From contig NZ_LT670849.1 of assembly GCF_900142985.1 (NCBI RefSeq), forward strand, positions 3,100,001 to 3,164,000: a stretch of 64,000 nucleotides of DNA, in the 5' to 3' direction. Positions 15,325-56,551 of the stretch are shown piece after piece. Every line of letters starts with the position of its first letter. Position 1 is the stretch's first letter. The DNA comes from Bradyrhizobium erythrophlei. GTDB taxonomy: Bacteria; Pseudomonadota; Alphaproteobacteria; Rhizobiales; Xanthobacteraceae. The position numbers and the translations under genes are program-made. The notes beneath the pieces are model-generated. The model had not been told where the DNA came from. It saw only the letters and a list, made by a program, of their open reading frames with translations, and did no database searches.

Positions 15325-15489
15325 CTAGTGTCCCGATTCCGAAGTTCGTCGCATCTTGCGGAGCCACGTTTCGAACTTCGGAATCGAAAGGACACTAGCT
15401 AACTCGTTGATCTAGTGTGGCCCTGGTTCAGAAGTCCGCATGACCGACTCGCGGCGATGATAACGCGGACTTCTGATCCGCCACACTAG
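15325..15489. repeat. Composite paired palindrome, copy 1 (zur-marR gap)
   Basis: Palindrome A covers 15325-15398, with ends CTAGTGTCC and GGACACTAG and inner arm GATTCCGAAGTTCG. Palindrome B covers 15412-15489, with ends CTAGTGTGG and CCACACTAG and inner arm GGTTCAGAAGTCCGC. The spacer is 13 bp. The pair fills part of the 367-bp gap between zur and marR. No coding sequence is seen. See the finding on this repeat family. Confidence 0.85.
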
Positions 15490-15605
15490 GTAGAAAATGG
15501 CTTAGCGCGCCGCCGAAAGAGTTCCCAAGCCATGTTCCTTGGACAGGGCAGGGCCGCAATGGCCGCCAATTAAAAATGAGCCTGGCCATTTAAAATTTCG
15601 TAAGC

Positions 15606-15629
15606 AAGCTTATTATATCCAAAGCTTAT
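15606..15629. promoter_or_regulatory. Repeated AAGCTTAT near the marR promoter
   Basis: AAGCTTAT occurs at 15606-15613 and 15622-15629 in the same orientation, 16 bp apart, flanking an AT-rich TATTATAT that could be a -10 box. The region lies just upstream of the marR start at 15652. Spacing of 1.5 helical turns and the location suit a MarR autoregulatory site, but this is inference. Confidence 0.35.
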
Positions 15630-15651
15630 GAAAGGGCTGGGGAACGAAACG

Positions 15652-16128
15652 ATGGCACGCAGTTCCGTTGACATGAACTTTTTGTTCACGCTCGGCGAGC
15701 TGGCGCGGCTGGTGCGCGCCCATGCCGACCGGCAGTCGGCGCGCTACGGCATCACCCGTGCGCAATGGGCGGTGCTGGCCAAGGTCGAACGTTTCGAAGG
15801 CATGAAACAGTCCGAACTCGCCGAACAGATGGAGATGCAGCCGATCACGCTGACGCGCCTCGTCGACCGCCTCTGCGATAACGGCTGGATCGAGCGCCGC
15901 GGCGACGAGACCGATCGCCGCGTCAACCGGCTCTATCTGCGCAAGGCCGCGCGGCCGCTGCTCGCCAAGCTGAGCGGCCTGCGCTCCGAGATCACCGAAA
16001 CTGCGCTCGAGGGCATCAGCCCGGCGGACGCGAACCGGCTGCTCACCCAATTGGAGGCGATCAAGGAAAACCTCCGCAACGCCATTCAGGATCAAGAAGA
16101 TGCAAGGAAGGAACAGCGCTATGGCTGA
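15652..16128 (+). CDS. MarR-family transcriptional regulator
   Basis: A protein of 158 aa from ATG 15652, behind GGGGAACGAAACG. The in-frame ATG at 15628 lacks a ribosome site. The winged-helix domain is complete: TRAQWAVLAKVERFEGMKQSELAEQMEMQPITLTRLVDRLCDNGWIERR... with the wing DETDRRVNRLYL (domain split here; about residues 35-100). It is the first gene of a three-gene operon with an HlyD-family adaptor and a DHA2-type pump. MarR proteins of this arrangement repress the pump until a toxic phenolic or drug binds. Confidence 0.85.
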   Translation: MARSSVDMNFLFTLGELARLVRAHADRQSARYGITRAQWAVLAKVERFEGMKQSELAEQMEMQPITLTRLVDRLCDNGWIERRGDETDRRVNRLYLRKAARPLLAKLSGLRSEITETALEGISPADANRLLTQLEAIKENLRNAIQDQEDARKEQRYG

Positions 16129-17290
16129 TCCCGTATTGAAATTTCCGCCCGAGCAGAAAGGCGCGCCGGGTCAGCCGCCGCGCGAAAAACTCGCAGGCAC
16201 GCCGCGCCGCCGATTGCTCGCCGCGCTGCGCCGCTATCGACGGTTCCTCTTGCTGGTGGTGCTGCCGATCGTCGCCGTGATCGGGGGCGTCGTGTTCTAT
16301 CTCAATGGCGGCCGTTATGTCGGCACCGACGACACTTACGTGGGCGCGCAAAAGGTTCTGATCACGCCCGATATTTCCGGCCGCATCGACAAGGTCGTGG
16401 TCAAGGAAGGCCAGCTCGTTCACAAGGGTGATGTGCTGTTCGAGATCGATCCGATTCCGTTCCGCCTCACCGTGGATCGCGCCAAGGCCGCGGTCGAACA
16501 GGCCAGGACGAGCTACAGCAACCTCGTCGCCAACATCAAGATTTACGACGAGATGGCCAACTTGATGCAGCAGGCCATCGACCTCAAGCAGCGCGATGTC
16601 GAGCGCAAGTCGGCGTTGGTGAAGAACAGCTACGGTTCGCAGCTCGACCTCGATAACTCGACGAACTCCGCCATCACCGTGCGCGCCGAGTTGGCCTTCG
16701 TGCAGCAGCAGCGGTCGAGCTCGCTGACGCAACTGCTTGGCAATCCGAACCTCAAGCTCGACGACTTTCCGCCCTATTACCAGGCGCAGGCCGCGCTCGC
16801 GCAGGCGCAACGCGACCTCGATCACACCGAGATGCGCGCGCCGATGGACGGCATCGCAACGCTGGTCGATCAGATCCAGCTCGGACGCTTTGTCGTCGCC
16901 GGCTCGCCGGTGTTCACGATCATCGATGTCGCCAAGCCCTGGGTCGATTCCAATCTGAAAGAGTCGGATCTGACCCATGTCGCAGTCGGCCAGACGGTCG
17001 AAATCGATGTCGACGCGTTCCCGGACCATACCTTCAAGGGCACGATCGGTTCACTCTCGCCCGGCACCGGCGCGCAATTCGCGATCCTGCCGCCGCAAAA
17101 CGCCACCGGCAATTTCGTCAAGGTGGTGCAGCGCGTGCCGGTGCGGATCTATTTCGATGCCAACGATCCGATGATCAAGAAGCTGAAAGCCGGCATGAGC
17201 GCCTATGCCACCATCGATACCGGCCACAAGCGCACGCTGGCCGGGCTCTTCGGCATTCGCTCGGCGGCAGCGAAGCAGGATCAGGATTAG
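16121..17290 (+). CDS. HlyD/EmrA-family membrane fusion protein
   Basis: A protein of 389 aa from ATG 16121, overlapping the end of marR by 8 bp, with AAGGAAGG upstream. A cytosolic N terminus is followed by one membrane helix (about residues 44-62), a lipoyl half-motif (TDDTYVGAQKVLITPDISGRI), a long coiled-coil hairpin (about 115-225), a second lipoyl half and beta-barrel domain (ATLVDQIQLGRFVVAGSPVF). This is the layout of EmrA, the periplasmic adaptor of tripartite drug pumps. It is 3 bp from the pump gene. The outer-membrane partner may be the TolC-like protein at 43189, an inference. Confidence 0.85.
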   Translation: MADPVLKFPPEQKGAPGQPPREKLAGTPRRRLLAALRRYRRFLLLVVLPIVAVIGGVVFYLNGGRYVGTDDTYVGAQKVLITPDISGRIDKVVVKEGQLVHKGDVLFEIDPIPFRLTVDRAKAAVEQARTSYSNLVANIKIYDEMANLMQQAIDLKQRDVERKSALVKNSYGSQLDLDNSTNSAITVRAELAFVQQQRSSSLTQLLGNPNLKLDDFPPYYQAQAALAQAQRDLDHTEMRAPMDGIATLVDQIQLGRFVVAGSPVFTIIDVAKPWVDSNLKESDLTHVAVGQTVEIDVDAFPDHTFKGTIGSLSPGTGAQFAILPPQNATGNFVKVVQRVPVRIYFDANDPMIKKLKAGMSAYATIDTGHKRTLAGLFGIRSAAAKQDQD

Positions 17291-17293
17291 ACC

Positions 17294-18856
17294 ATGTCGC
17301 CGACGGCGATCCCGACGCCCAGCGCCGTTCCTGGTTTCCGGCGGAACATGGTGACGATCTGCGCCATGACCGCCACCATCATGCAGGCGCTCGACACCAC
17401 GATCGCCAATGTCGCGTTGCCCTACATGCAGGGCACGCTGTCGGCGTCGCAGGACCAGATCAACTGGGTGCTGACCTCCTACATCGTGGCGGCGGCGATC
17501 ATGACCGCGCCGGTGGGATGGATCGCCAACCGTTTCGGACGCAAGCGCACCTTCATCATCTGCTCGGCCGGCTTCACCTTCGCCTCCGTGCTGTGCGGGC
17601 TCGCGCAGGACATCAACCAGATGGTGCTATTCCGCCTGCTGCAAGGCGTGTTCGGCGCCGCGCTGGTGCCGCTGTCGCAGGCGGTGATGCTCGACTCCTA
17701 TGCGCTGCACGAGCGCGCCAAGGCGATGTCGATCTGGGGCATGGGCGTGATGATGGGCCCGATCATGGGGCCTTCACTTGGAGCGTGGCTGACCGAGACT
17801 TACTCCTGGCACTGGGTGTTCTTCGTCAACCTGCCGTTCGGCATCGTCACCGTGATCGGCTTGTTGGTGTTCATGGACGAGACCAGGCAGGACACGGATT
17901 TGCGTTTCGACTGGTTCGGCTTCGCAGCGCTCGCGATCGGGATCGGCGCGCTGCAAGTGGCGCTCGATCGCGGCGAACAGCTCGGCTGGCTGGAATCCAA
18001 CGAGATCATCGCCGAATTCGTCGTCGCGATCGTCGGATTCTACTACTTCTTCGCGCACTCCTTTACGACGGATCGCCCGTTCATCCAGTTTGCGCTTTTC
18101 AAGGATCGCAACTTTCTCACCGGCTGCATCTTCATGACGGTGATGGGGCTCGTGCTGTACTCGACCATGGCGCTGGCCTCGCCCTACCTGCAAAACGTCA
18201 TCGGCTATCCGATCATCACCGCCGGCGTGCTGCTCGCAAGCCGCGGCGTCGGCACCTTCGTCGCCATGATGATGGTCGGCCGCCTGATGCGTTATATCGA
18301 GGCGCGCACCTTGATCATTACAGGCTTGGGCCTCACGGCGCTATCGCTGTACCAGATGACCGCCTGGACCGATCAAACCGGCGTATCCGAAATCGTGACG
18401 ATCAGCATCATCCAGGGCTTTGGCTTCGGGCTTGTGTTCGTGCCGCTGTCGACGGTCGCGTTCATGACGCTGCCGAATTACCTGCGCACCGACGGCACCT
18501 CGATGCTGACCTTGATGCGCAACGTCGCAAGTTCGGTCGGCATCTCGATCGTGATCGCGCAGCTCACCGAAGGCGGTCGGCGGGTCTATGCGATCCTCTC
18601 GGAACACGTCACCCCGTTCAACCAGGCGCTCCAGATGCCCGACGTGCACAGCATGATCAACCTCGGCACCGACAAGGGCCGTGCCATGGCCGATGTCATG
18701 GTGGGGCTGCAAGCGCAGATCATCGCTTTCTCGCAGGACTATCAGCTCGTGATGTTCTTCATCCTGGGCTCGATCCCGCTCGCGCTGATGATCGGTTCGA
18801 CCAAGGCTGCTTTGAAAAAACAAGCCACCGGGCCCGAACACGCCGTGATGGAATAG
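17294..18856 (+). CDS. DHA2-family drug:H+ antiporter, EmrB-like
   Basis: A protein of 520 aa with 14 predicted transmembrane helices, the DHA2 number. Helix 1 has MQALDTTIANVALPYMQG, the family's D1 motif; motif A is GWIANRFGRKRTF (about residues 75-87); motif C is GMGVMMGPIMGPSLGAWL (about 151-168). It starts 3 bp after the emrA-like gene and ends 12 bp before the convergent pcaG gene. The operon marR-emrA-emrB suggests inducible export of hydrophobic drugs or aromatic acids. The neighbouring pca genes make aromatic acids attractive substrates, but this is inference. Confidence 0.85.
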   Translation: MSPTAIPTPSAVPGFRRNMVTICAMTATIMQALDTTIANVALPYMQGTLSASQDQINWVLTSYIVAAAIMTAPVGWIANRFGRKRTFIICSAGFTFASVLCGLAQDINQMVLFRLLQGVFGAALVPLSQAVMLDSYALHERAKAMSIWGMGVMMGPIMGPSLGAWLTETYSWHWVFFVNLPFGIVTVIGLLVFMDETRQDTDLRFDWFGFAALAIGIGALQVALDRGEQLGWLESNEIIAEFVVAIVGFYYFFAHSFTTDRPFIQFALFKDRNFLTGCIFMTVMGLVLYSTMALASPYLQNVIGYPIITAGVLLASRGVGTFVAMMMVGRLMRYIEARTLIITGLGLTALSLYQMTAWTDQTGVSEIVTISIIQGFGFGLVFVPLSTVAFMTLPNYLRTDGTSMLTLMRNVASSVGISIVIAQLTEGGRRVYAILSEHVTPFNQALQMPDVHSMINLGTDKGRAMADVMVGLQAQIIAFSQDYQLVMFFILGSIPLALMIGSTKAALKKQATGPEHAVME

Positions 18857-18868
18857 CGTCGACTCGCG

Positions 18869-19471
18869 TCAAACGTCGAAGAACACCGTCTCGTTATCGC
18901 CCTGCAAGCGGATGTCGAAGGTGTAGACAGGGTTGCCGTCTGCCTTGCGCTTTGCAATTAGCGTCGCACGGCGATCCGCCGGCACCAAAGCGAGCACGGG
19001 ATCGGCGGCGTTGGCCGCTTCGCCATCGAGATAGATGCGCGTGTAATTGTGCAAGAGCATGCCGCGGGCAAAAATCGCGACCAAAATATGCGGCGCCTGC
19101 GGCTTGCCACCGGGGCCGGGCACGGGACCCGGCTTGATCGTATCGAAGGCATATTCGCCGTTGGCGCCGGTGCCGCAGCGGCCGAAACCGCGGAATTTCG
19201 TGTTCGGCAGCGCGCGACTGTCCTTCGGGTCGACGAAACGTCCCTGGGCGTCGGCCTGCCAGATTTCCAGCATGCAGTCCGGCACCGGTTTGCCGTCGCC
19301 GTCGAACACCTGCCCCTCGATCCGGATGCGCTCGCCGGTCGCATCCGACGTCACGAGATTGTTCGTGAACGCGTCGTTCCACTCATAGCGGCCGGTCGGC
19401 GTCAGCCCGTAGGCAAAGAAGGGGCCCACGGTCTGTGAGGGGGTGATTCCCTCTCGCTTGGTCTCAGCCAC
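18869..19471 (-). CDS. pcaG: Protocatechuate 3,4-dioxygenase alpha subunit
   Basis: A protein of 200 aa from GTG 19471, which overlaps the pcaH stop (TAGTG). The reading frame stays open far upstream inside pcaH, but the family N terminus (VAETKREGITPSQTVGPFFAYGL) begins here. The alpha subunit shares the intradiol dioxygenase fold (RIEGQVFDGDGKPVPDCMLEIWQADAQG) but lacks the iron ligands, which sit in PcaH. With PcaH it cleaves protocatechuate to 3-carboxy-cis,cis-muconate. The overlap implies translational coupling and equal subunit supply. Confidence 0.93.
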   Translation of the reverse strand: MAETKREGITPSQTVGPFFAYGLTPTGRYEWNDAFTNNLVTSDATGERIRIEGQVFDGDGKPVPDCMLEIWQADAQGRFVDPKDSRALPNTKFRGFGRCGTGANGEYAFDTIKPGPVPGPGGKPQAPHILVAIFARGMLLHNYTRIYLDGEAANAADPVLALVPADRRATLIAKRKADGNPVYTFDIRLQGDNETVFFDV

Positions 19472-20172
19472 TATTTGGTCTCCATCGGCGTGGCGTTCTG
19501 GCCGCGCAATACAATGTTGAAGCGGTAGCACAGCGCCCATTCGGGCTGGGTGTTCTCCAGGTCGAAGGAGGAGACCATCCGCGCCCGCGCCTTTTCGTCC
19601 GTGACCGAGTTGAAGATCGGGTCGAACGGGAACAGCGGATCGCCCGGAAAATACATCTGCGTGACCAGCCGCGTCACGAAGGAATAGCCGAACACCGAGA
19701 AATGAATGTGCGCCGGCCGCCACGCATTGTGATGGTTGCCCCAGGGATAAGCGCCGGGCTTCACTGTGATGAACTTGTAATAGCCTTCGCTGTCGCTCTG
19801 CGCGCGGCCCGCACCGGTGAAATTCGGATCGAGCGGCGCCGGATGCTGATCGCGTACGTGGATGTAACGTCCGCAGGCATTGGCCTGCCACAGCTCGACC
19901 AGCGCGTTCGGCACGCCGCGGCCGTCTTCGTCGAGCACATGGCCGTGCACGATGATGCGTTCGCCGATCGGCTCGCTTTTGTGCTGGGTGGTGAGGTCGG
20001 CGTCTCCGGGGCGCACGGTCTCATGGCCGTAAACCGGCCCGGTCAATTCCGACAGCGTATGCGGCATGATGACCAGCGGCTTCGACGGCGAACGCTTCAC
20101 CGTGCTCTTGTAGTCCGGCGACAGCCGCGCCGGATGCGCCGCATTGCTGCTGATGGGATAGGTGAGGGTCAT
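19471..20172 (-). CDS. pcaH: Protocatechuate 3,4-dioxygenase beta subunit
   Basis: A protein of 233 aa from ATG 20172 (GGAGACC upstream). The Fe(III) ligands are all present: Tyr103 (CGRYIHV), Tyr142 (PGAYPW), His155 and His157 (WRPAHIHFSV), with Arg152 in the active site. With a constant offset of 305 these agree with Tyr408, Tyr447, His460, His462 and Arg457 of the Pseudomonas enzyme as I remember that numbering. It catalyses ring cleavage of protocatechuate. pcaF lies upstream on the same strand, separated by 115 bp that include two REP-like hairpins. pcaD, pcaC, pcaB and the pcaQ regulator are not in the window. Confidence 0.95.
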   Translation of the reverse strand: MTLTYPISSNAAHPARLSPDYKSTVKRSPSKPLVIMPHTLSELTGPVYGHETVRPGDADLTTQHKSEPIGERIIVHGHVLDEDGRGVPNALVELWQANACGRYIHVRDQHPAPLDPNFTGAGRAQSDSEGYYKFITVKPGAYPWGNHHNAWRPAHIHFSVFGYSFVTRLVTQMYFPGDPLFPFDPIFNSVTDEKARARMVSSFDLENTQPEWALCYRFNIVLRGQNATPMETK

Positions 20173-20188
20173 GTTGGTCTCCGCTGCT

Positions 20189-20279
20189 CACCCTCATGGT
20201 GAGGAGGCGCTTGCGCCGTCTCGAACCCTGAGGCCCTCATCCTTCGAGACGCGGCTTTGCCGCTCCTCAGGATGAGGGT
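20189..20279. repeat. Head-to-head pair of REP-like hairpins between pcaF and pcaH
   Basis: Two hairpins, 20190-20233 and 20234-20278, lie back to back. Each starts CCTCAT and ends TGAGG, and they are inverted with respect to each other (GGCGCTTGCGCC loop in the first, GCGGCTTTGCCGC in the second). This arrangement resembles a BIME of bacterial REP sequences; similar elements are frequent in Bradyrhizobium-type genomes. Inside the pca transcript they could stabilise or separate mRNA segments. Confidence 0.7.
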
Positions 20280-20287
20280 GTAAGTCG

Positions 20288-21496
20288 TCAGTTCAACTTC
20301 TCGATCGCCATCGCGACGCCCTGGCCGACGCCGACGCACATGGTGGCGAGCGCGCGTTTTCCCCCGCCCTTTTCCATGCCGTGCACGGCCGTCACGACCA
20401 GGCGCGCGCCGCTCATGCCAAGCGGATGGCCGAGCGCGATCGCTCCGCCATGCGGGTTGACGAAATCAGCATCGTCCTTGACGCCGAGCTGGCGCAGACA
20501 AGCGATGCCCTGGCTGGCAAAGGCCTCATTGAGCTCGATCAGATCGAAGTCAGTAATCTTCAATCCAAGCCGTTCCATCAGCTTCCTCGTTGCCGGCACC
20601 GGGCCGATGCCCATGATGCGCGGCGGTACGCCGGCCGAGGCCAGCCCGAGAATGCGCGCCCGCGGCGTCAGGCCGTGCTTTTTCACAGCGGCTTCGGAAG
20701 CGAGGATCATGGCGGCGGCGCCGTCATTGACGCCCGATGCGTTGCCGGCGGTCACGGTGCCGGGATTGCGCACGATTGGCTTCAGCTTGGCGAGGCCCTC
20801 CAGCGTGGTTTCCGGGCGCGGATGCTCATCCTTGTCGACCGTGATGGGGCCGGCCTTGCCGCCGGGCACGGTCACCGGCGTGATTTCCTCGGCGAAGTAA
20901 CCGGCCGCGATGGCTTTGCCGGCGCGCTGCTGCGAGCGGATGGCAAACGCATCCTGGTCGGCGCGGGAAACCTGGAATTCCTCGGCGACGTTCTCGCCGG
21001 TTTCCGGCATCGCATCGACGCCATATTGCGCCTTCATCAAGGGATTGATGAAGCGCCAGCCGATGGTGGTATCGAAAATATCGGCCGAGCGCGAAAACGC
21101 TTCCGCCGCCTTGCCCATCACGAACGGCGCCCGCGTCATCGATTCCACGCCGCCGGCAATCGCAAGATCGACCTCGCCGGCCCGGATCGCGCGCGCACCG
21201 GCGCCGACCGCATCCAGTCCCGAGGCGCAGAGGCGGTTGAGGGTCTGTCCGGGAACCTTGTCCGGGATGCCCGCGAGCAACAGCGCCATCCGCGCCACGT
21301 TGCGGTTGTCTTCGCCGGCCTGGTTGGCGCAGCCGAAATAGACCTCGTCGACTTGCGACCAGTCGAGATTGGGGTGTTTGGCCATCAGCGCCTTGATCGG
21401 CGTGGCCGCCAGATCGTCGGCGCGGACCTTGGCGAGTGAACCGCCGAAGCGGCCGATCGGGGTCCGGATCGCATCACATACAAATACCTCACCCAT
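20288..21496 (-). CDS. pcaF: Beta-ketoadipyl-CoA thiolase
   Basis: A protein of 402 aa from ATG 21496 with GGAGAG nine bases upstream. Thiolase catalytic residues are visible: Cys90 in TLNRLCASGLDAV, the GHPLGMSGAR His loop, and the final Cys in CVGVGQG. N terminus MGEVFVCDAIRTPIGRFGGSL is characteristic of PcaF. It splits beta-ketoadipyl-CoA to succinyl-CoA and acetyl-CoA, the last step of the beta-ketoadipate pathway, and the pcaHG genes behind it support this over a general acetyl-CoA acetyltransferase. A long palindrome (21506-21584) ends against its ribosome site. Confidence 0.9.
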   Translation of the reverse strand: MGEVFVCDAIRTPIGRFGGSLAKVRADDLAATPIKALMAKHPNLDWSQVDEVYFGCANQAGEDNRNVARMALLLAGIPDKVPGQTLNRLCASGLDAVGAGARAIRAGEVDLAIAGGVESMTRAPFVMGKAAEAFSRSADIFDTTIGWRFINPLMKAQYGVDAMPETGENVAEEFQVSRADQDAFAIRSQQRAGKAIAAGYFAEEITPVTVPGGKAGPITVDKDEHPRPETTLEGLAKLKPIVRNPGTVTAGNASGVNDGAAAMILASEAAVKKHGLTPRARILGLASAGVPPRIMGIGPVPATRKLMERLGLKITDFDLIELNEAFASQGIACLRQLGVKDDADFVNPHGGAIALGHPLGMSGARLVVTAVHGMEKGGGKRALATMCVGVGQGVAMAIEKLN

Positions 21497-21505
21497 CGGT
21501 CTCTC

Positions 21506-21676
21506 CTTAGTGCCCACTTTCCGAAGTTCGTGCTCTGTCCCAGCACCCACCTTTCACGAACTTCGGAAAGTCATGGGCACTAAGCAAACTTATCGATTCC
21601 AGTGCCGCTTTTCTATTTGAAGTTCCTGGGCGGACTCGCCGCTTGTGGTGCAGGAACTTCAAATAGGCGGCACTGG
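21506..21676. repeat. Composite paired palindrome, copy 2 (pcaF-mutS gap)
   Basis: Palindrome C covers 21506-21584 (ends CTTAGTGCCCA and TGGGCACTAAG, inner arm CCGAAGTTCGTG). Palindrome D covers 21599-21676 (ends CCAGTGCCGC and GCGGCACTGG, inner arm CTATTTGAAGTTCCTG, perfect over 16 bp). The spacer is 14 bp. The terminal tetranucleotide has drifted from CTAG to CTTAG and CCAG but remains self-complementary between the two ends. The pair lies in the 373-bp divergent gap between pcaF and mutS, and the rest of that gap shows no gene. Confidence 0.85.
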
Positions 21677-21869
21677 TGTTCCCTGCGTTAGCGCGAGTTG
21701 TAGGAGCGGGCATATCCAAGGTCAATTGACTGGTTTCATGCGATCTTTGCTTTCCCGCGAAGGCGGCCATGCTGGCCAGTCAGGATGTCCGCTCCGGGGC
21801 GTGGAAAACGCGCAAAGACGTGGCAAAGCGGTAGGATCAGCCACCTAAATTTTGTAGTTTGCGCCGCTC

Positions 21870-24600: not shown

Positions 24601-24680
24601 CGTCATTGCGAGCGCAAGCGAAGCAATCCAGCATGTGACTGAAACTGGATGCTTCGTCGCGTTCGCTCGTCGCAATGACG
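24601..24680. repeat. Interspersed palindromic repeat after mutS
   Basis: CGTCATTGCGAGCG at 24601 pairs imperfectly with CGCTCGTCGCAATGACG ending at 24680; AGCAATCCAG and CTGGATGCTTCGTC form the inner arms. This hairpin type is common in Bradyrhizobium-like genomes. It separates the convergent mutS and membrane-protein genes and could terminate both. Confidence 0.7.
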
Positions 24681-45514: not shown

Positions 45515-45916
45515 GTCTGTCAGTCCGGGGATTAGAAATTCGCCCGGATTCTGCCATATCCGCCGCCAGGGAAATCGCTCGGCGCAAAAACAAATCATTT
45601 GCCCAATATACAGGGGTTGGGCCGCCAGCCGACCCCACAGGATGGGGTCGGAACCCAAAAATTCGATCGGAAAGAGTCCCCGGCAACACCCCCAACTCCG
45701 GAATTAAGATTCATTACTTCCGGAGGGCTCAGATTCGCGTTTCCTGGAGTCAATTCAGGGGGTTAACGACCCCCCCCGGCCGACAGCAGTGCTCTCGCGC
45801 GAACCCTGGTGTGGCGGTTCAGAAGTCCGCATCATCGTGGCCCGCGAGTCCGTCATGCGGACTTCTGAACCAGAGCTGCAAGTTCCGCGTGGACTGTTTG
45901 CGTGTTGGTCCGACTA
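45515..45916. other. 400-bp gap with one decayed palindrome
   Basis: Between the metallopeptidase and phaZ genes, both on the minus strand. It holds the single palindrome at 45806-45877, a run of eight C near 45770, and no convincing reading frame. Confidence 0.6.
45806..45877. repeat. Single palindrome of the composite-repeat family, decayed
   Basis: Perfect 17-bp arms GGTTCAGAAGTCCGCAT (45816-45832) and ATGCGGACTTCTGAACC (45855-45871). The core matches palindrome B at 15412-15489. The left end reads CTGGTGTGGC where copy B has CTAGTGTGGC; the right end is lost, and there is no partner palindrome. Confidence 0.75.
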
Positions 45917-48971: not shown

Positions 48972-49078
48972 TTGGCTTGTTCATTGAGGCATTCAATCCG
49001 CCAACGCAAGGCTTCCCGTGGCTTTACGCCGCGCCAGCGTGGGATCGGGACACTGGGTATGATCAACGAAATTTGTCG

Positions 49079-49246
49079 CCAGTGGAGTGGATTTGACATT
49101 CGCTACTCAGCTAGCCGCGGGTCCATAAGGCGAATGTCAAATCCCAAACTCCACTGGGACCCCAAATTTGCTAGTGGTCCTTTAATTCTAACATTCGCAA
49201 AAGTGGAAGCTGCGAAGGGATGCGAATGTTAGAATTGGACCACTAG
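49079..49246. repeat. Composite paired palindrome, copy 3 (upstream of regB)
   Basis: Palindrome F covers 49079-49157 (ends CCAGTGGAGTGG and CTCCACTGG, inner arm GGATTTGACATTCGC). Palindrome G covers 49171-49246 (ends CTAGTGGTCC and GGACCACTAG, inner arm ATTCTAACATTCGCA). The spacer is 13 bp. The pair is nearly identical to copy 5 at 56385-56551. It ends 21 bp before the regB start, so it lies in the regB leader or promoter. The rest of the 296-bp gap shows no gene. Confidence 0.88.
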
Positions 49247-49267
49247 CCGCTTGCGCAGCTAAAACCC

Positions 49268-50596
49268 ATGTCGATGTCCGATACCGCCGCCACCGACTTC
49301 CGCCTGCCGCGCCGCCAGGTTCGTCTCGACACGATCCTGCGGCTGCGCTGGCTCGCCGCGCTCGGCCAGCTCGCGGCCATCTTCATCGTCGAACAGGGAC
49401 TTGAATTCGACGTCGAGGTGGCGCCGTGCCTGGCCATTGTCGGCTTCTCCGCGCTGTTGAACCTCGTCCTTCAGGTCTGGTTCAACCCAATGGAGCGGCT
49501 GGAGCCCGCGTTTGCGTCCGCGCTGCTGGCGCTGAACATCGTCGAACTCGCCGGGCTTCTGTTTTTTACCGGCGGTTTGCAGAACCCGTTTTCATTCCTG
49601 TTTCTGGCGCCGGTTCTGATCTCGGCCACTGCGCTGCCGATCAGGTTCACCATCGCGCTCGGCATGCTCGCGGTCGCCTGCGCATCCGCACTGGTGTTCG
49701 TTCATTTTCCGCTGCCCTGGGACAGCGACGATCCGCTGGTGCTGCCGCCGATCTACTTGTTCGGCGTCTGGCTTTCGATCGTGGTCGCGATTGCCGTCAC
49801 CAGCCTCTATGCGTTTCAGGTCGCGGAAGAAGCCCGCAAGCTCTCCGACGCGCTTGCGGCAACCGAACTGGTGCTGGCGCGGGAACAGCACCTGACGCAG
49901 CTCGACGGTCTGGCGGCGGCGGCCGCGCACGAACTGGGGACGCCGTTATCGACCATCTACCTTATTTCACGCGAGCTCGAGCACGGCCTCGAGGACAAGC
50001 CACAGCTTGCCGGCGACATCAAAACCTTGCGTGAGCAGGCGCAGCGCTGCCGCGAAATCCTTGCCAAGATCACCCAGCTGTCTTCGAGCGGCGCGCCGTT
50101 CGATCGCATGCCGCTGTCGGCGCTGATCGAGGAGACGGTAGCTCCGCATCGCGACTTCGAGGTCGCGATCAAGGTGCGCATCGCGGTGGCGGGCACTCCG
50201 GAACCTGTCGGCATGCGCAATCCGGCCATCATCTACGGCGTCGGCAATATCCTGGAAAATGCGGTCGATTTTGCCGGCACCGCCGTCGAGGTGAACGCCT
50301 GGTGGAATGCCGAGACCGTGGAGATCGTCATTTCCGACGACGGCCCCGGCATCGCGCCGGATCTGCTCAAGCGGATCGGCGAGCCTTATCTGTCGCGCCG
50401 GCCGGGGGCGGAGGAGGGCGAGGGCCCGCGCAGCGGCCTTGGCCTCGGCGTGTTCATCGCCCGCACCCTGCTGGAGCGCACCGGGGCCAAGGTTTCCTTT
50501 GCCAACCGCGTGTTCCCCGATCACGGCGCAGTGGTCCAGATCGTGTGGCCGCGCAACCGTTTTGAGGTTAGGGAACCGGCCACGGAGTTAACCTGA
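49268..50596 (+). CDS. regB: Redox-sensing histidine kinase RegB (RegS/PrrB/ActS)
   Basis: A protein of 442 aa. Six membrane helices fill residues about 25-185, with the ubiquinone-associated motif GGLQNPF at 102-108. The H-box is AAAAHELGTP with His221. Cys261 (AQRCREIL) is 40 residues after the His, the spacing of the redox-active Cys265 to His225 in Rhodobacter RegB. N and G boxes are present (NILENAVDFA, DDGPGI, GLGLGVFIA). RegB responds to oxygen and quinone redox state and phosphorylates RegR, controlling respiration, nitrogen fixation and carbon fixation genes in this group. regR follows after 86 bp. Confidence 0.93.
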   Translation: MSMSDTAATDFRLPRRQVRLDTILRLRWLAALGQLAAIFIVEQGLEFDVEVAPCLAIVGFSALLNLVLQVWFNPMERLEPAFASALLALNIVELAGLLFFTGGLQNPFSFLFLAPVLISATALPIRFTIALGMLAVACASALVFVHFPLPWDSDDPLVLPPIYLFGVWLSIVVAIAVTSLYAFQVAEEARKLSDALAATELVLAREQHLTQLDGLAAAAAHELGTPLSTIYLISRELEHGLEDKPQLAGDIKTLREQAQRCREILAKITQLSSSGAPFDRMPLSALIEETVAPHRDFEVAIKVRIAVAGTPEPVGMRNPAIIYGVGNILENAVDFAGTAVEVNAWWNAETVEIVISDDGPGIAPDLLKRIGEPYLSRRPGAEEGEGPRSGLGLGVFIARTLLERTGAKVSFANRVFPDHGAVVQIVWPRNRFEVREPATELT

Positions 50597-50682
50597 GGGG
50601 GTGAAATCGACTTTGGGCGTCTTGGCGTGCCTGTTTCGACGCCATATGTTGGTGGGGTTGGGTCAACGAGGACACGGTCATC

Positions 50683-51237
50683 TTGAACGCCATTGCCGAA
50701 CTAGCCGGACACCCCGATCGTTCGCTTCTGATCGTGGAGGACGATAAGCCGTTCCTGGAACGGCTCTCCCGCGCGATGGAAACCCGCGGGTTTGCCGTGA
50801 CGTCCTGCGACAGCGTCGCGGACGGCCTGAGCCAGATCGCCAAGGCGGCGCCCGCTTTTGCGGTGGTGGATTTGCGGCTCGGCGACGGCAACGGCATCGA
50901 TCTGGTGTCGGCCCTGAAACGCAAGCGCCCCGAAGCACGCGCCATCATCCTGACCGGCTACGGCAATATCGCGACCGCCGTGACCGCGGTGAAGCTTGGC
51001 GCGGTCGACTATCTTTCCAAGCCGGCCGATGCCGACGACGTGGTGTCGGCGCTGCTTGCGCTCGGTAACCAGAAATCCGAGCCGCCGAGCAATCCGATGT
51101 CGGCGGACCGCGTGCGTTGGGAACACATCCAGCGGATCTACGAGATGTGCAATCGCAACGTCTCGGAGACGGCGCGGCGGCTGAACATGCATCGCCGCAC
51201 CTTGCAGCGAATTCTGGCCAAGCGCGCCCCGCGCTAG
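50683..51237 (+). CDS. regR: Redox response regulator RegR (RegA/PrrA/ActR)
   Basis: A protein of 184 aa from TTG 50683, with GAGGA upstream; no other start fits the conserved N terminus. The receiver domain has the phospho-acceptor Asp63 in VVDLRLGDGNG and Lys in SKPAD. A proline-containing linker leads to a Fis-type helix-turn-helix at the C terminus (NVSETARRLNMHRRTLQRIL), as in all RegA homologues. The stop TAG (51235-51237) is part of the CTAGTG end of a palindromic repeat. A second short copy of the gene's 3' end lies at 51973-52008. Confidence 0.93.
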   Translation: MNAIAELAGHPDRSLLIVEDDKPFLERLSRAMETRGFAVTSCDSVADGLSQIAKAAPAFAVVDLRLGDGNGIDLVSALKRKRPEARAIILTGYGNIATAVTAVKLGAVDYLSKPADADDVVSALLALGNQKSEPPSNPMSADRVRWEHIQRIYEMCNRNVSETARRLNMHRRTLQRILAKRAPR

Positions 51238-51420
51238 TGCGGCGAATTTGAAGTTCCTATCAGTTTTTGCCGCGGGTTCACTATAGGAACTTCAAATTCA
51301 AGGCCGCACTAGAAAACAAGGCCGCACTAGAAAAACAATAGTTGCTAGAGCTCTTCTGATTCCGAAGTTCGCATTAGAGGCCGCCTCAATGGTTTGCGAA
51401 CTTCGGAATCAGAGCTTTAG
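51234..51420. repeat. Composite paired palindrome, copy 4 (downstream of regR)
   Basis: Palindrome H covers 51234-51312 (ends CTAGTGCGGC and GCCGCACTAG, inner arm AATTTGAAGTTCCTAT). Palindrome I covers 51345-51420 (inner arm CTGATTCCGAAGTTCGCA, perfect over 18 bp). Between them an 18-bp direct tandem duplication of the right end of H (51299-51316 and 51317-51334) stretches the spacer to 32 bp; without it the spacer would be 14 bp as elsewhere. The left end of H overlaps the regR stop codon. Confidence 0.88.
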
Positions 51421-51582
51421 TTGCCCGGCAAGCGAACCTTTCACGCCGCAAGGTGAATGACACCGAATTCATGTTGCTGATCGCAGTATGAACGTCCTGT
51501 TCAGCGCGGCTTCTGTTGTGTCGGTCTAGTTTTCTGCCGTGGTGGATGGCTCCCGCATCCACTTTGAACGGAGAAGCAAGTC

Positions 51583-51918
51583 ATGACCCGCATCAAACTG
51601 TTTTCGATGGCTGTACTGACCCTTGCAACACTCGGCACCTCGTTGACGGGCGCATCCGCAGAGACCCTGTGGCAGTACAATCATCCGCGCCGCGCCGAAG
51701 TGAACGCGCGTCTCGGTTACCAGAACTACCGCATCGACCAGGGCGAAGCCTCCGGCCGTATTTCGCCTTACCGCGCCGAGCGGCTCCATGCCGAAGACCG
51801 TACTATTCGCTACGAGGAACGCGCCATGGCGCGCTTCAACGGCGGCTACATCACCCCTGCCGAGCAGCGCGCGCTGAACCAGCAGGAGAACGTGGTCAGC
51901 CGGCAGATCGGCTGGTGA
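51583..51918 (+). CDS. Small conserved-looking exported protein
   Basis: A protein of 111 aa with a GGAGAAG ribosome site. The signal peptide (MTRIKLFSMAVLTLATLGTSLTGASA) is followed by HPRRAEVNARLGYQNYRID, HAEDRTIRYEERAMARFNGG and TPAEQRALNQQENVVSRQIGW, all charged and probably helical. The pattern is known to me from hypothetical proteins of rhizobia, with no known function. It is the only gene in the segment between the two copies of the regR 3' end. Confidence 0.65.
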   Translation: MTRIKLFSMAVLTLATLGTSLTGASAETLWQYNHPRRAEVNARLGYQNYRIDQGEASGRISPYRAERLHAEDRTIRYEERAMARFNGGYITPAEQRALNQQENVVSRQIGW

Positions 51919-51943
51919 TCTTTCTCTCTGTCCCCGAGCGACT

Positions 51944-51974
51944 GGCCCCGTTGCTGATGCAGCGGGGCCTTCTT
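51944..51974 (+). terminator. Terminator after the small exported gene
   Basis: GGCCCCG (51944-51950) pairs with CGGGGCC (51963-51969); TGC and GCA extend the stem inside around a short loop. TTCTT follows. It lies 26 bp behind the small exported gene and runs into the regR-like fragment. Confidence 0.55.
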
Positions 51975-52008
51975 GCAGCGAATTCTCGCCAAGCGCGCGC
52001 CACGCTGA
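51973..52008 (+). pseudogene. Fragment of a second regR 3' end
   Basis: The 36 bases encode LQRILAKRAPR and a stop, exactly the last 11 residues of RegR (51202-51237). They differ at five positions, all silent: one Leu, one Ala and one Pro codon, and TAG against TGA. Upstream similarity to regR continues weakly (ATGCA...), with a frame change. Silent-only differences mean the fragment comes from a regR gene that was under selection, not from a fresh copy of the gene next door. Confidence 0.7.
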
Positions 52009-52018
52009 TTGACTTCGC

Positions 52019-52504
52019 TTAGAATTCTTCGTGACCCTGCGGATCGACCAGGCGGTTGATCCGCTGCGCCGCGGCCATGGCAAACCGCACTGTCATCGAC
52101 TTGCGGGTCGGCGCCGGCAGCCGGTGTTCGGGCGCCGGACGCTCAAGATGCGCGCCATAGGCGTCGGCGATGATCAGCCCGGTCTCTTCGGGAAAAATCT
52201 CGCGCGGCAGATCCTGCAGGAGCGCAAAAAACAGCCGGTCGCAATGCGCGCGGTATTCCGGCCATTTCTGGTCGGCGCGCAAATCCTCGACCGAGGATTT
52301 GATCTCGACGATCCAGATCTCGTTGCGGTCGTTGATGGCGACGAGATCGGCGCGGCGGCCCGAGGGCAGCGGCAACTCGCTGATGCAGGCAAAACCCAGC
52401 GAATATAACAGCCGTGCGGTGCCGCGTGCGATCGCAAGCGCGTTCTCGGACTGGCGGCGATCGGGTGCCGGCACAATGGCGAGTTTTGGGGCGGGCGATT
52501 CCAT
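52019..52504 (-). CDS. mmcB: MmcB-family DNA repair protein
   Basis: A protein of 161 aa from ATG 52504. It has the putative nuclease pattern of the family: GRRADLVAINDRNEIWIVEIKSS around residues 48-70, where Asp and the E-x-K pair fit a PD-(D/E)xK active site, and YRAHCDRLFFAL. MmcB is a damage-inducible alphaproteobacterial protein. No LexA box could be verified by eye. It is divergent from the MBL-fold gene and ends next to the regR-like fragment. Confidence 0.75.
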   Translation of the reverse strand: MESPAPKLAIVPAPDRRQSENALAIARGTARLLYSLGFACISELPLPSGRRADLVAINDRNEIWIVEIKSSVEDLRADQKWPEYRAHCDRLFFALLQDLPREIFPEETGLIIADAYGAHLERPAPEHRLPAPTRKSMTVRFAMAAAQRINRLVDPQGHEEF

Positions 52505-52651
52505 GACGGTCAGAATAAGGCCTGCCCCGATCAAGTGGAAACGGTTTTGCTTGGGATGCGTTGGATTGGGCGTATGCGGACATCGTTCCGCCGGCGCCAG
52601 GTGGGCTCAACTTTCCCTTGGCGGACCGCAAAAAATCGGCAATGTGCACCC

Positions 52652-53335
52652 ATGACAGAGACATCCGAAAACAAGGCCTCCGAAAACAAGGCCAAAGCCG
52701 GCGCGATGATCGTTCCGGTGACGCCGTTCGAACAGAACTGCACCCTGATCTGGTGCACGGCGACCCAAAAGGCCGCGGTGATCGATCCCGGCGGCGATCT
52801 GCCGCGAATTCAGGCCGCGATCAAAGAGGCCAACGTCACGGTCGAGAAGATCTGGATCACGCACGGCCATATCGACCATGTCGGCGCTGCGGCCGACTTG
52901 CGCGACGCGCTCAAGGTGGGCATCGAAGGCCCGCATCTGGCGGACAAGTTCCTGCTCGACAATGTGGTGGCGAGCGGCGAGCGCTTCGGCATCACTGGCG
53001 TGCGCAATTTCGCGCCGGACCGCTGGCTCGAGGAAGGCGAGCAGGTTTCGATCGGCGAATTGACGTTCGACGTCCTGCATTGCCCCGGCCATTCACCCGG
53101 CAGCGTGGTGTTCTTCAACAAGGAGATGCGCTTCGCCCATGTCGGCGACGTCCTGTTCAACGGTTCGGTCGGGCGCACTGATTTGCCGGGCGGCGATCAC
53201 GCTACCCTGATCCGCTCGATCAAGGACAAGCTGCTGCCGCTCGGTGACGATGTCGGCTTCATCTGCGGGCATGGCGCAGGTTCCAGAATCGGCCATGAGC
53301 GGATGACCAATCCGTTCCTCACCGGCGCGATGTGA
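52652..53335 (+). CDS. MBL-fold metallohydrolase, glyoxalase II-like
   Basis: A protein of 227 aa from ATG 52652; a downstream ATG at 52706 starts closer to the core. Zinc ligands: THGHIDHVG (His71, His73, Asp75, His76), CPGHSPGS, HVGDVLF and CGHGAGSRIG. It belongs to the group of small hydrolases often called YcbL/GloB-like. It probably hydrolyses a thioester. The N terminus before MIVPVTPFEQN is Lys/Glu-rich and may not be translated. Divergent from mmcB. Confidence 0.8.
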   Translation: MTETSENKASENKAKAGAMIVPVTPFEQNCTLIWCTATQKAAVIDPGGDLPRIQAAIKEANVTVEKIWITHGHIDHVGAAADLRDALKVGIEGPHLADKFLLDNVVASGERFGITGVRNFAPDRWLEEGEQVSIGELTFDVLHCPGHSPGSVVFFNKEMRFAHVGDVLFNGSVGRTDLPGGDHATLIRSIKDKLLPLGDDVGFICGHGAGSRIGHERMTNPFLTGAM

Positions 53336-53383
53336 CCGAGCGTCTGGCGCCGTCCGCAACGACGTCAGGAAATCAATCGCCAG

Positions 53384-54634
53384 CTATTTCATCAGGCCCG
53401 CGGCCGTCAGCGCCCGGGTGATGGCCGCGCCGACATCAAGCGTATTTCGCCGCTTGACCGTCGGTTTTGCCGCTTTCGTCTTTGCGGCATTGCCGGTCTT
53501 TGTTTTCGCAGTGGTCGCGACAGGCTTGGCCGTCCCGATGAGCGGCTCCAGAACTTTGCTGAGAACGGGAGCGGGCGGCGCGATCGGGGAGGCCACCGGA
53601 ATCAACTTCGCGCTGGGCGATTCAGCGCGAGGAAAAGGCCTCGCGAGCTTCGGAATGCCATCGGTGAGGCCGAAGAAACTGGCAATATGATGCGACGACG
53701 AGATACCGGCCTCGACCATGAACGCGCCTTGGCGGCCGTAGCGCTGGTCGTTCTCGGCCTTCCCGATCGGCGTGCCGTGGGCCATGCCGGTGATGGTGTA
53801 GCTCTCGACGACCGTCTCGCCGTCTTCGTTCCACCAGACCTGATGCGGATAGCCGTCGACGGTGCCCTCGGCCATCGGATGCGACGGCAGGTGATGCAGG
53901 TCGAGCCACTGTTTGACGATCTCGTCGGCATTGGCGGGATTGACGGTGCGATCCACGCTGCCGTGCCACACCGAAACCTTGGGCCAGGGCGCACGGTGTT
54001 TCGAGGCGTGGCGCACCAGGTTGCCCAGGTCGTTGGCCGAACGCGCGGGCGACCGAAACATGCTATTCAAGGCTTCGCGCATGTTGGTCGCGACGCCGAA
54101 CGGCAAGCCTGCGATGATCGCGCCGGCGGCAAACACTTCCGGATAAGTCGAAAGCATCACCGACGTCATGGCGCCGCCGGCGGAAAGCCCGGTGATGAAA
54201 ACGCGGTGCTTGTCGATCCGGTGCTGGCTCACCATGCGCGCGATCATCTGCCGGATCGAGCAGGCCTCGCCGTGGCCGCGCTTGGTGTCTTCCGGATTGA
54301 ACCAGTTGAAACAGGTATGCGCGTTGTTTGACGCTTGCTGCTCGGGCATCAACAGCGCAAAGCCGTAATGCTTTGCGAGTGTCGACCAGCCGGCGCCGAC
54401 GTCGTAACCGGCCGCGGTCTGTCCGCAGCCATGCAGCACGACAACGAGCGCAGGCTGTGGCCGCAGGTCTGGCGGCACGAAGGAGAACATCCGCAAGTCG
54501 CCCGGGTTGGTGCCGAACTTCCGGGTTTCCACCAGCGAACTGCCGATGGCGCCGGGCATCATGTGGCCGAGGCCATCCCAGCCGTTCAATCCGGGCAGCC
54601 GGCGCAGGAATTCGATATTTTTCGCAAGCGACAC
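53384..54634 (-). CDS. PHB depolymerase-family esterase with Ala/Lys-rich tail
   Basis: A protein of 416 aa. The esterase core has HGCGQTAAGYD (68-78) and Ser151 in TGLSAGGAM, with SVWHGSVDRTVNP and GMAHGTPIG supplying acid and His. This is the LpqC / extracellular PHB depolymerase type, but there is no signal peptide. After residue 325 comes a Pro/Ala/Lys-rich tail with TAKTKTGNAAKTKAAKPTVK, ending in a short hydrophobic helix (VGAAITRALTAAGLM). The tail resembles those of granule-associated or DNA-binding proteins, which would fit action on PHB granules; this is inference. It follows the methyltransferase-glycosyltransferase gene on the same strand after 177 bp. Confidence 0.8.
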   Translation of the reverse strand: MSLAKNIEFLRRLPGLNGWDGLGHMMPGAIGSSLVETRKFGTNPGDLRMFSFVPPDLRPQPALVVVLHGCGQTAAGYDVGAGWSTLAKHYGFALLMPEQQASNNAHTCFNWFNPEDTKRGHGEACSIRQMIARMVSQHRIDKHRVFITGLSAGGAMTSVMLSTYPEVFAAGAIIAGLPFGVATNMREALNSMFRSPARSANDLGNLVRHASKHRAPWPKVSVWHGSVDRTVNPANADEIVKQWLDLHHLPSHPMAEGTVDGYPHQVWWNEDGETVVESYTITGMAHGTPIGKAENDQRYGRQGAFMVEAGISSSHHIASFFGLTDGIPKLARPFPRAESPSAKLIPVASPIAPPAPVLSKVLEPLIGTAKPVATTAKTKTGNAAKTKAAKPTVKRRNTLDVGAAITRALTAAGLMK

Positions 54635-54752
54635 GGCTGCTCCTCAATGCCCAAAAATCGGGACGCACCTCAAAGCAGATAATTGCTGCACTGCGAAATA
54701 AAAAGACCGTGTGCTGTCAGTCCTCAGGAAAATATTTTTCATGAGACGTCGC

Positions 54753-54773
54753 AAAGACGCGTGATGCGTCCTT
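54753..54773 (-). terminator. Weak terminator behind the methyltransferase-GT2 gene
   Basis: On the minus strand an 8-bp stem (AAGGACGC and GCGTCTTT, one G-T pair) closes a five-base loop, 39 bp after the stop of the fusion gene. Confidence 0.35.
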
Positions 54774-54811
54774 GACAAAGGTGCCGTGCATTGGCGCGAA
54801 AGATGGCGGAA

Positions 54812-56281
54812 TCAGATCGCCTTCAATTTACGATAGGCAAACCACACCATCTTCAAGAGCAGCCAGCCATCGCGAAAACGTGAGATCTGGGTCTCGCCGA
54901 ACGTGCGGGCCTTGTAGTGGATCGGCGTCTCGACAATTTTGAGATTCTGCTTCGCCGCGCCGAAGATCAGATCGAAATCGCCGAACGGATCGAAGTTGCC
55001 GAAATAGCTGCGCTCGCGCGCCAGCACCTCATAGTCCTTGCGCAGGAGCACCTTGGTGCCGCACAGCGTATCGGTCAGGCGCGTGTTGACGAGATAGCTG
55101 AAGAGATAGGCAAACACGCGATTGGCGATGAAGTTGAGCGGGCGCATCGCCTCGTTTTCCATCGGATAGACGAGGCGGGTGCCGTTGACGAACTCTGCTT
55201 TGCCGGTCTCGATGATCGCATGAAATTTCGGCAGCGCTTCCGGCGGCATCGTCAGATCGGCGTCGAGAATCATCAGGACATCGCCGGAGGCGGCTGCAAA
55301 ACCCTTGCGCACCGCGTCGCCCTTGCCTTTGCCGTCCTGCTTGAGAACCTTGATGTCCCAGCTCTCTTTATAGGCGTCGCGCACGCGTTCGCATTCGGCG
55401 AAGGTGTTGTCGCTGGAGTTGCCTTCGACGAACAGGATTTCCTGCGCCGCGCCAAATCGTGGCATGCGCCGGATCGCATTCTCGATATTGCCGCTCTCGT
55501 TGCGGCAGGGAATGAGAATGCTGGCCGAAAATTTCCGCTCTGGAAACAGACGAACGGGACGCCCGACCAGATAGGTCCGCAGGCACAGGTGGCGGATGCC
55601 CGGCAGCGGCGCGATGAAGCGGTTGATGAACGGGCCGAGGCCAAGCCAGTGACGCGGTAGCAGCTGGCGCTGCTCCTGGCCGATCACTTCGAAATCGGCA
55701 AGGTCCATCAAATTGAGGAAGTCAGCGGTCGCGACGTAGTTGATGGTCGGCTGTTTGGCGCGCAGGCGCAATAGCTCGGCGGCTTTAAGGATCGGCTCCC
55801 ACAAATGCGAGTAGTAGGAGATGATGAGCCGCGTCGACGGCGCGCACAAATGATGCACCAGCCGCAACGTCGCATCGATATCCTCGAACATGCCGATGGT
55901 GTCGGCGATCACGATGTAATCGAACGGTCCTTCGATCGAGTTGAGCGTGTCGGGATCCTCGACGTCGCCCAGCACGAAACTGAGATCGGGATGCAGCTCG
56001 TTGGCTTTCGCGATCGTCCTGGCGCCAAAATCGACACCGACGCCGTAAGAAGGCTCCAGCGCTGCCAATAAATCGCCGCGGCCGCATCCGAGTTCCAGCA
56101 CCCGCTTGCCCGGCGGAATCAGAAAACGCATGAACTTGAAATCGTCTTCGTGATAGGCGGCGTTGAATTTTCGCCAGCGCTCCAGCTCGTCGACATTGCT
56201 CTCGAAGTGGTCGACAAGATCGCGCTTGCGCTGCGTGGGCAGCTCAAGGGAGCGCGCGGCGTCGGACGGCCTCAAATACAT
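54812..56281 (-). CDS. SAM methyltransferase-GT2 glycosyltransferase fusion
   Basis: A protein of 489 aa from ATG 56281 (GAGGTC upstream). Residues about 20-210 form a class I SAM-dependent methyltransferase with motif I VLELGCGRGD (61-70) and FDYIVIADTIG (120-130). Residues about 250-460 form a GT2 glycosyltransferase of the dolichol-phosphate-mannose-synthase type: ASILIPCRNESGNI (253-266), LDADLT with DAD at 340-342, and NGTRLVY. A C-terminal hydrophobic segment may touch the membrane. The two activities on one chain suggest synthesis of a methylated glycolipid or surface sugar on a lipid carrier. No other polysaccharide gene is nearby. Confidence 0.85.
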   Translation of the reverse strand: MYLRPSDAARSLELPTQRKRDLVDHFESNVDELERWRKFNAAYHEDDFKFMRFLIPPGKRVLELGCGRGDLLAALEPSYGVGVDFGARTIAKANELHPDLSFVLGDVEDPDTLNSIEGPFDYIVIADTIGMFEDIDATLRLVHHLCAPSTRLIISYYSHLWEPILKAAELLRLRAKQPTINYVATADFLNLMDLADFEVIGQEQRQLLPRHWLGLGPFINRFIAPLPGIRHLCLRTYLVGRPVRLFPERKFSASILIPCRNESGNIENAIRRMPRFGAAQEILFVEGNSSDNTFAECERVRDAYKESWDIKVLKQDGKGKGDAVRKGFAAASGDVLMILDADLTMPPEALPKFHAIIETGKAEFVNGTRLVYPMENEAMRPLNFIANRVFAYLFSYLVNTRLTDTLCGTKVLLRKDYEVLARERSYFGNFDPFGDFDLIFGAAKQNLKIVETPIHYKARTFGETQISRFRDGWLLLKMVWFAYRKLKAI

Positions 56282-56384
56282 CTTGACCTCGGCGGGGGAC
56301 GAAGGGGTCGTCTTAGCCGATGGGTCGGGAGGTGTAAATTCGCCTAGCCGGCCATAAAGCGGCCGATTTCATGGCCGCGAGGCG

Positions 56385-56551
56385 CTAGTGGAGTGGATTT
56401 GACATTCGCTATCCCTTAGCCGGGAATGCGCAAGGCGAATGTCAAATCCAAAACTCCACTAGAAACTTATATTTGCTAGTGGTCCTTTGATTCTAACATT
56501 TGCAAAAGTGCCTGCCGCAATGGGATGCAAATGTTAGAATCGGACTACTAG
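56385..56551. repeat. Composite paired palindrome, copy 5
   Basis: Palindrome J covers 56385-56462 (ends CTAGTGGAGTGG and CTCCACTAG, inner arm GGATTTGACATTCGC). Palindrome K covers 56476-56551 (ends CTAGTGGTCC and GGACTACTAG, inner arm GATTCTAACATTTGCA). The spacer is 13 bp. It is nearly the same sequence and order as copy 3 upstream of regB; loops differ most. It lies in the 361-bp divergent gap between the fusion gene and the LLM gene, and the rest of the gap has no gene. Confidence 0.88.

Follow-up and report, generated by a model that had tools for sequence, protein, structure and literature searches.

The miniature inverted-repeat transposable element (MITE) MITEPsy1, which is probably of the IS5 type and targets CTAG, is one single element of 100 nt whose terminal repeats measure 18 nt. 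Here we describe a paired-hairpin unit that occurs repeatedly in a 64,000-nucleotide stretch of Bradyrhizobium erythrophlei DNA (the window: bases 3,100,001-3,164,000 of the 7,525,117-bp single-contig genome, referred to as G000). The unit shares with MITEPsy1 its short, non-coding, multi-copy nature, its empty sites and its CTAG target, but it is a heterodimer of two palindromes of ~75 bp with a conserved spacer. CTAG is also a target of insertion sequences: that of IS481 is NCTAGN, IS870 reportedly requires CTAG in order to create its own stop codon, and the TA in CTAG is said to be the preferred site of an IS630 transposon.

Repetitive extragenic palindromic (REP) sequences, together with the BIME and REPIN elements and the RAYT transposases that accompany them, are likewise intergenic palindromes with many copies and frequent dimers; their hairpins measure 20-40 bp and carry GTAG or CGTC tags, whereas those of our unit measure ~75 bp and end in CTAG, so that hairpin size, tag sequence and target all differ (PMC3733652), and no Y1 domain was found in G000. 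The same genus has palindromic intergenic repeats of its own: Bradyrhizobium japonicum carries about 200 copies of Br-REP1 and at least 50 of Br-REP2. Their printed consensus sequences (CCGGAATCTCGAGATTCCGG; CGAGATTCCGGGTTCGG...) are unlike either half of our unit by inspection rather than by sequence search, and the section that deals with them has neither a CTAG unit nor a paired geometry (PMC5082802). The RIME repeats of Rhizobium and the Bru-RS repeats of Brucella, the latter palindromic, are intergenic and belong to the same order, a comparison that is based on mentions of them in other texts and not on their sequences. The literature searched, seen partly in excerpt, yields related families and describes no paired-hairpin CTAG unit, RIME being excepted from that comparison, and Rfam returned no match in the window and only a tRNA in 10 further loci. 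We file the unit as an element of the MITE kind whose paired-hairpin CTAG form we have not found described.

Our findings indicate that the unit is probably a MITE-like non-autonomous transposable element and that what moves is the whole double hairpin of ~167 bp. It is short, non-coding and multi-copy and contains no transposase, as is expected of a MITE. All six structures of a preliminary description of this DNA, five pairs and one single copy, are present (Table 1), and each of the five gaps in which it had seen two palindromes folds as two hairpins, at -83 to -92 kcal/mol per pair. An alignment (A1) of 35 of the 38 pairs from a hairpin scan reveals an asymmetric heterodimer with a direction: an alpha hairpin (~78 bp) is followed by a spacer (13-14 bp) and a beta hairpin (~76 bp). 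Excluded from A1 were L018:4595 and, deliberately, both the chimera L017:12236 and the pair at 51234, in whose spacer we confirmed the 18-bp duplication. Each hairpin has an outer stem of ~10 bp that starts with CTAG, an inner stem of ~16 bp and a loop of ~20-26 nt; the bulges face the spacer, being A-rich on the 3' side of alpha and T-rich on the 5' side of beta, and the outer arms are alike at both unit ends. RNAalifold places 52 pairs in A1, 40 of them with pair-keeping changes on both sides. The palindromes were described at first as usually ending CTAGTG...CACTAG; the terminal CTAG varies (CCAG, CTGG, TTAG and others), and 115 of 174 outer ends are exactly CTAG at 87 unique places in four genomes (146 matches from which lower-scoring overlaps were dropped, including those on opposite strands).

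At least five matched alpha/beta classes can be told apart by eye. Two mixed units were also seen: in L017:12236-12410 both halves are alphas, each of another class and normally spaced, and in L132:14290-14459 (in the relative G221) a class-1 alpha is combined with a class-5-like beta. Both are possibly recombinants.

The genome holds many copies, and these are pairs. The core motif GAAGTTCGN{20,45}CGAACTTC has 75 matches in the genome against 0 for its reversed control, well beyond what chance would give. A model, R1, trained on A1, recovers the five window pairs with E values of 2e-32 to 2e-43; four of the five belong to A1 and are matched by construction, and the pair at 51234 does not. In an 864-kb sample of G000, made up of the window and 40 stretches of 20 kb chosen independently of core-motif matches, R1 finds 42 uninterrupted pairs (one being the chimera of two alphas) and one interrupted pair, a class-1 pair split by a class-4 pair (L014). 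Two or three singles or remnants make up the non-pairs of the sample, namely the lone hairpin at 45806, what remains of a unit in L023 and a weak match in L006. The possibility that most copies are single palindromes with random spacing, set out beforehand as fatal to a composite unit, therefore does not describe this sample, in which pairs with fixed spacing predominate overwhelmingly. Extrapolation from the 864 kb gives ~375 pairs per genome, ~0.8% of its DNA; in the genome-wide R1 search all of the 150 candidates scored were matches, which sets a lower bound.

Two relatives, G221 and G222, are collinear with parts of the window, G222 being 86% identical at mutS. The sites of the units at 49079 and 56385 and of the single at 45806 are empty in both relatives and that of the unit at 21506 is empty in G222; G222 also lacks the unit at 15325, but its flanks there have diverged. 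Flank alignments at 15325, 45806, 49079 and 56385 make absence evident but not the exact junctions. No unit occurs in 60 kb of G222 spanning most of the window. Differences run in both directions: the G000 unit at 6,727,586 is missing from G221, and G221 units at L133 3899, 5858, 13011 and 18361-18621 and at L132 7497-7830 (two in tandem), 12422 and 14290 are missing from G000. Among the orthologous sites compared none is half-occupied; L133 1650, L132 4609 and L132 5701, which are degenerate or unclear, were scored neither as occupied nor as empty. Both halves are thus absent together in two relatives, and this insertion polymorphism, seen between species only, supports the movement of the pair as a whole unit. 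Together with the pair counts, it also upholds the earlier proposal of one mobile unit with two hairpins in place of independent REP sequences.

At two amber stops both G000 and G221 carry units that differ in class. The response-regulator stop has class 2 in G000 and class 3 in G221 (both CGC TAG) and no unit in G222 (CGT TAG), and at the gyrA stop the units are of class 1 (G000) and class 4 (G221); independent landing or unit-by-unit replacement would both fit. By an MmcB-like protein, nearly all of the closest named contigs are Bradyrhizobium; of 80 named contigs around mmcB just one carried units, and the occupancy of any given site is therefore low.

CTAG, which had been named as a candidate target, is borne out by an empty site, by nested and tandem units and by overlaps with stop codons. 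The G000 counterpart of L133 3899 is empty, and its left junction still reads CCACCACTAGACC, where G221 has CCGCCGCTAG followed by the unit. The class-4 pair in L014 sits inside the inner CTAG of the class-1 pair that it splits, one copy of which has become CTGG; in L133 a class-1 pair sits inside the inner CTAG of a class-3 pair whose far end is truncated, with CTAG on both sides; and tandem units have one CTAG in common. A target-site duplication, CTAG or TA, can thus be seen around the nested units and, for one orthologous site, at its left junction.

In the 864 kb, CTAG outside the units occurs at 302 intergenic places, at 53 stops of the form C+TAG and at 102 places in called genes. Because coding sequence seldom contains this tetranucleotide, whereas C+TAG stops do, the units insert between genes or exactly on amber stops. 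The statement that no copy lies inside a gene stands for units as wholes, none of the 42 being wholly inside a called gene, but the first four bases of the unit at 51234 are the C and TAG stop of the upstream response-regulator gene. Eighteen of the 42 lie between tandem genes, 16 between divergent and seven between convergent genes, and one is at an edge; these context types are approximate since they come from a simple homemade gene caller whose coding fraction was low (0.65) in one stretch. Stop positions are independent of the choice of start. At nine of 32 neighbouring unit and gene 3' ends (three gene ends being counted twice because of tandem units) the end of the unit supplies the TAG stop, at exactly -4; eight of the nine read CTAG and one GTAG, the end being that of alpha in five and of beta in four. 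Two further units overlap the 3' end of a called gene by 18 nt. The same 4-nt overlap appears in the annotation of plasmid records of Bradyrhizobium sp. CB82, Roseibium algicola, Agrobacterium vitis and Agrobacterium sp. T29, at four of six distinct annotated places and in three genera.

The best placed of the alternatives, though an improbable one, is that the units are structured regulatory RNAs or bidirectional terminators, retained because their transcripts fold. The folds are indeed very stable, covariation across the order is seen at 49 of 52 pairs, and other Bradyrhizobium repeats are transcribed in 3'-UTRs (PMC5082802). Selection for RNA folding should favour G.U over A.C, yet the two are about equal. 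The stem cells of the 87 unique places comprise 4241 Watson-Crick pairs, 77 G.U, 81 A.C and 94 others (4493 in total), and in the 17 units that lie between tandem genes the counts along the transcript are 14 G.U and 12 A.C. Sixteen of the 42 units lie between divergent genes, the positions compared are not conserved in relatives and no Rfam entry matches a unit. The suggestion of a regulatory RNA in the preliminary description thus draws no support from the mismatch spectrum or the gene context, as far as sequence can tell, and the pairing looks to be maintained as DNA and not as RNA.

Divergence between near neighbours (52 pairs) is 4.6% of positions in the stems, 20-23% in the loops and 20% in the spacer, which we read as constraint on the stems in transposing lineages followed by probably neutral decay after landing. 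The likeness of copies also speaks for the MITE reading: in G221, which has IS630 genes, copies at different loci are 97% alike, and in G000, which has none, the closest sampled copies are 92% alike, the nearest copies genome-wide of the units at 56385 and 49079 being 93% and 89% alike. Mismatched stem pairs average 3.6% in G221 (27 units), 4.3% in G000 (46) and 12.7% in G222 (11), with G241 the least decayed at 1.9% (three units, chosen from top matches).

A much poorer account of the data is that two independent single-hairpin MITEs land side by side in neighbouring CTAG sites. Each hairpin has its own CTAG ends, lone copies exist in the single at 45806 and in a beta-only copy on an A. vitis plasmid, and the mixed pairs L017:12236 and L132:14290 combine hairpins of different classes. 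However, the length and sequence of the spacer are conserved within the genome and across genera, alpha goes with the beta of its own class in the pairs read by eye, mixed pairs aside, and half-occupied orthologous sites have not been seen. We give equally little credence to a REP/REPIN system in which the hairpins are large REPs mobilised by a Y1 HUH transposase (RAYT): the units are intergenic hairpin pairs with asymmetric bulges in many copies, and REPINs are reportedly mobile elements composed of REPs (PMC3116915), but a REP-type transposase was looked for and none was found in G000 (0 matches to PF01797, against a control that is positive in five of 14 genomes), the hairpins are of the wrong size and tag, as noted above, and CTAG stands on both sides of nested and tandem units.

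How, then, might the double hairpin be moved as a MITE? A trans-acting DDE transposase that prefers CTAG would recognise the two outer arms, and enzymes of the IS630/Tc1-mariner type, cutting at TA, or of the IS5 type, duplicating CTAG, would be candidates. Insertion exactly on an amber stop preserves that stop through the CTAG remaining on the side of the gene. The palindromic halves, with four copies of the arm per unit, would be kept in transposing lineages for binding or for a hairpin intermediate, and each landed copy would then decay. The transposase seems to have been lost from G000 or to have gone unrecognised there. IS630-type elements in G221, in G222 and on rhizobial plasmids sit in CTAG and have ends reading CTAGT, as the units do, and the DDE_3/IS630 domain (PF13358) is present in G221 and G222; none was found in G000, G241, G616 or G407, IS5-type transposases not having been searched for. 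The likeliest mover, though unproven, is thus a DDE transposase that prefers CTAG and works in trans.

We also considered whether IS630 elements and the hairpin arms have terminal repeats in common, one of the first four ends being similar (p 0.003). This candidate was dropped when, beyond CTAGT, ends resembled the arms at p<=0.05 in three of 22 cases (11 copies, with internal controls), the other 19 matching the arms no better than the controls; the shared target alone is kept for IS630 as a consequence. The IS630 loci were L172-L181; L181 has no resolvable ends, and L177, whose ends are almost identical to those of L175 and L176, was left out of the 22-end test, as were L166-L168.

That low number of arm-like ends is one of several observations that weigh against the reading as a double-hairpin MITE with a DDE mover. 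A hairpin can exist by itself, as the one at 45806 does. An autonomous partner was not found; no autonomous form, with a gene between both hairpins, was noticed in the loci read, where no dedicated search was made for it. G241, G616 and G407 carry units and have no PF13358, and the least decayed units are those of G241, without that domain, whereas the most decayed (12.7%) are those of G222, which has it. The IS630 ends are not significantly like the arms, and how fresh the copies of a genome are does not go with the presence of the IS630 domain; a DDE mover is therefore inferred, its family being left open. The relatives G221 and G222 are distant, about 85% identical in genes, and most junctions are inexact for that reason, including those at 49079 and 56385. 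Three empty sites read CTTGA (5 nt where the unit at 21506 would be), TCGGT and TCG in place of CTAG, perhaps due to later change, and duplication of TA is indistinguishable from duplication of CTAG because CTAG is palindromic.

A bolder extension of the MITE reading seems to us unlikely, though it deserves mention: the obligate double hairpin would itself be the substrate of transposition, and would define an order-wide class of mobile DNA. Four inverted arms would move as one, possibly through a folded-strand or cruciform intermediate in which one arm is re-copied from the other, so that the palindromes stay near perfect while the sequence drifts into matched alpha/beta classes. Through its CTAG specificity such an element would be a 'safe-site' parasite that settles harmlessly on amber stops, and its transposase might not be recognisable as Y1 or IS630.

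The units are not confined to one genome. At least 182 of 265 genomes of the genus have one match or more, and in the order matches occur in at least 81 of 397 genomes drawn and in at least 35 of 141 genera, all of these counts being lower bounds since the best 10 or 7 candidates were scored per genome. The 397-genome draw supersedes a smaller one of 41 genomes, in which none of 16 order genomes outside the genus matched. At 25 loci beyond those first sampled, of which one is in G000, the order alpha-spacer-beta is kept, and the model matches are 170-175 nt long except for one deleted copy (L144). The 49 covarying pairs mentioned above come from alignment A3, whose 51 rows represent both strands of most of these 25 loci, so that counts are inflated. 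Plasmid records with matches belong to Aminobacter, Martelella, Rhizobium, Ochrobactrum, Agrobacterium, Allorhizobium and Roseibium/Labrenzia; no Sinorhizobium record is among the plasmid matches, a class-2 query gave no plasmid match and a class-1 query gave no phage match. The A. vitis plasmid copy (L183:1501-1579) is single in another way, being a beta hairpin that lies without an alpha on the stop codon of a MerR-family gene; five other A. vitis records and one Allorhizobium record match in a gene of the same name.

Table 1. Paired-hairpin units, the single hairpin and associated features in the window (positions are those of the window).
Feature	Position	Strand	Remarks
Paired-hairpin unit, class 4	15325..15489	-	Beta hairpin first on + strand; between divergent Fur-like and MarR-like genes
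Paired-hairpin unit, class 3	21506..21676	-	Between divergent thiolase and mutS genes
Single hairpin, the exception	45806..45877	.	Site empty in both G221 and G222
Paired-hairpin unit, class 1	49079..49246	+	Between divergent ABC transporter and histidine kinase genes
Paired-hairpin unit, class 2	51234..51420	+	On stop codon of response-regulator gene; 18-bp duplication lengthens spacer
TAG stop codon, response-regulator gene	51235..51237	+	Within terminal CTAG of 51234 unit
Paired-hairpin unit, class 1	56385..56551	+	Between divergent glycosyltransferase and luciferase-like genes
Alpha hairpin of 56385 unit	56385..56462	+	CTAGTGGAGT...ACTCCACTAG; AAA bulge, 3' side
Spacer of 56385 unit	56463..56475	+	AAACTTATATTTG
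Beta hairpin of 56385 unit	56476..56551	+	CTAGTGGTCC...; TTT bulge, 5' side

Other repeats share the window and the genome with the units. Beside the unit at 51234, a 35-bp stretch at the 3' end of the response-regulator gene (51201-51235) is found again, 91% identical, 771 bp downstream at 51972-52006, and most of the DNA between the two copies is skipped in the G222 alignment; this seems to be a local duplication or insertion distinct from the unit. At 24601-24680, between mutS and the next gene, lies an intergenic hairpin of another kind (CGTCATTGCGAGCGCAAGCGAAGCAATCC...), which resembles a common alphaproteobacterial repeat. A 103-bp direct repeat, 80% identical (10852-10954 and 12320-12422), is apparently unrelated to the paired hairpins. 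Two further repeat families of G000 have hairpins with CCCGGAATCCAT-like arms in one case and CATCCACGTCTT arms in the other, the latter being perhaps REPs of the CGTC type; their approximate positions are L006 9169, L024 14580 and L033 1875, and L020 4418, L025 17919 and L032 17804.

Identification of the unit explains an extrapolated ~375 intergenic structures in one genome, and many more across the Hyphomicrobiales, all of which might be mistaken for small RNAs, terminators or REPs. Mismatches between the arms may serve as a clock giving the age of each insertion. The double hairpin raises the question of how a transposase reads four inverted sites, and its target, a tetranucleotide that is rare in genes yet present at C+TAG stops, which insertion leaves intact, suggests a safe-site strategy.

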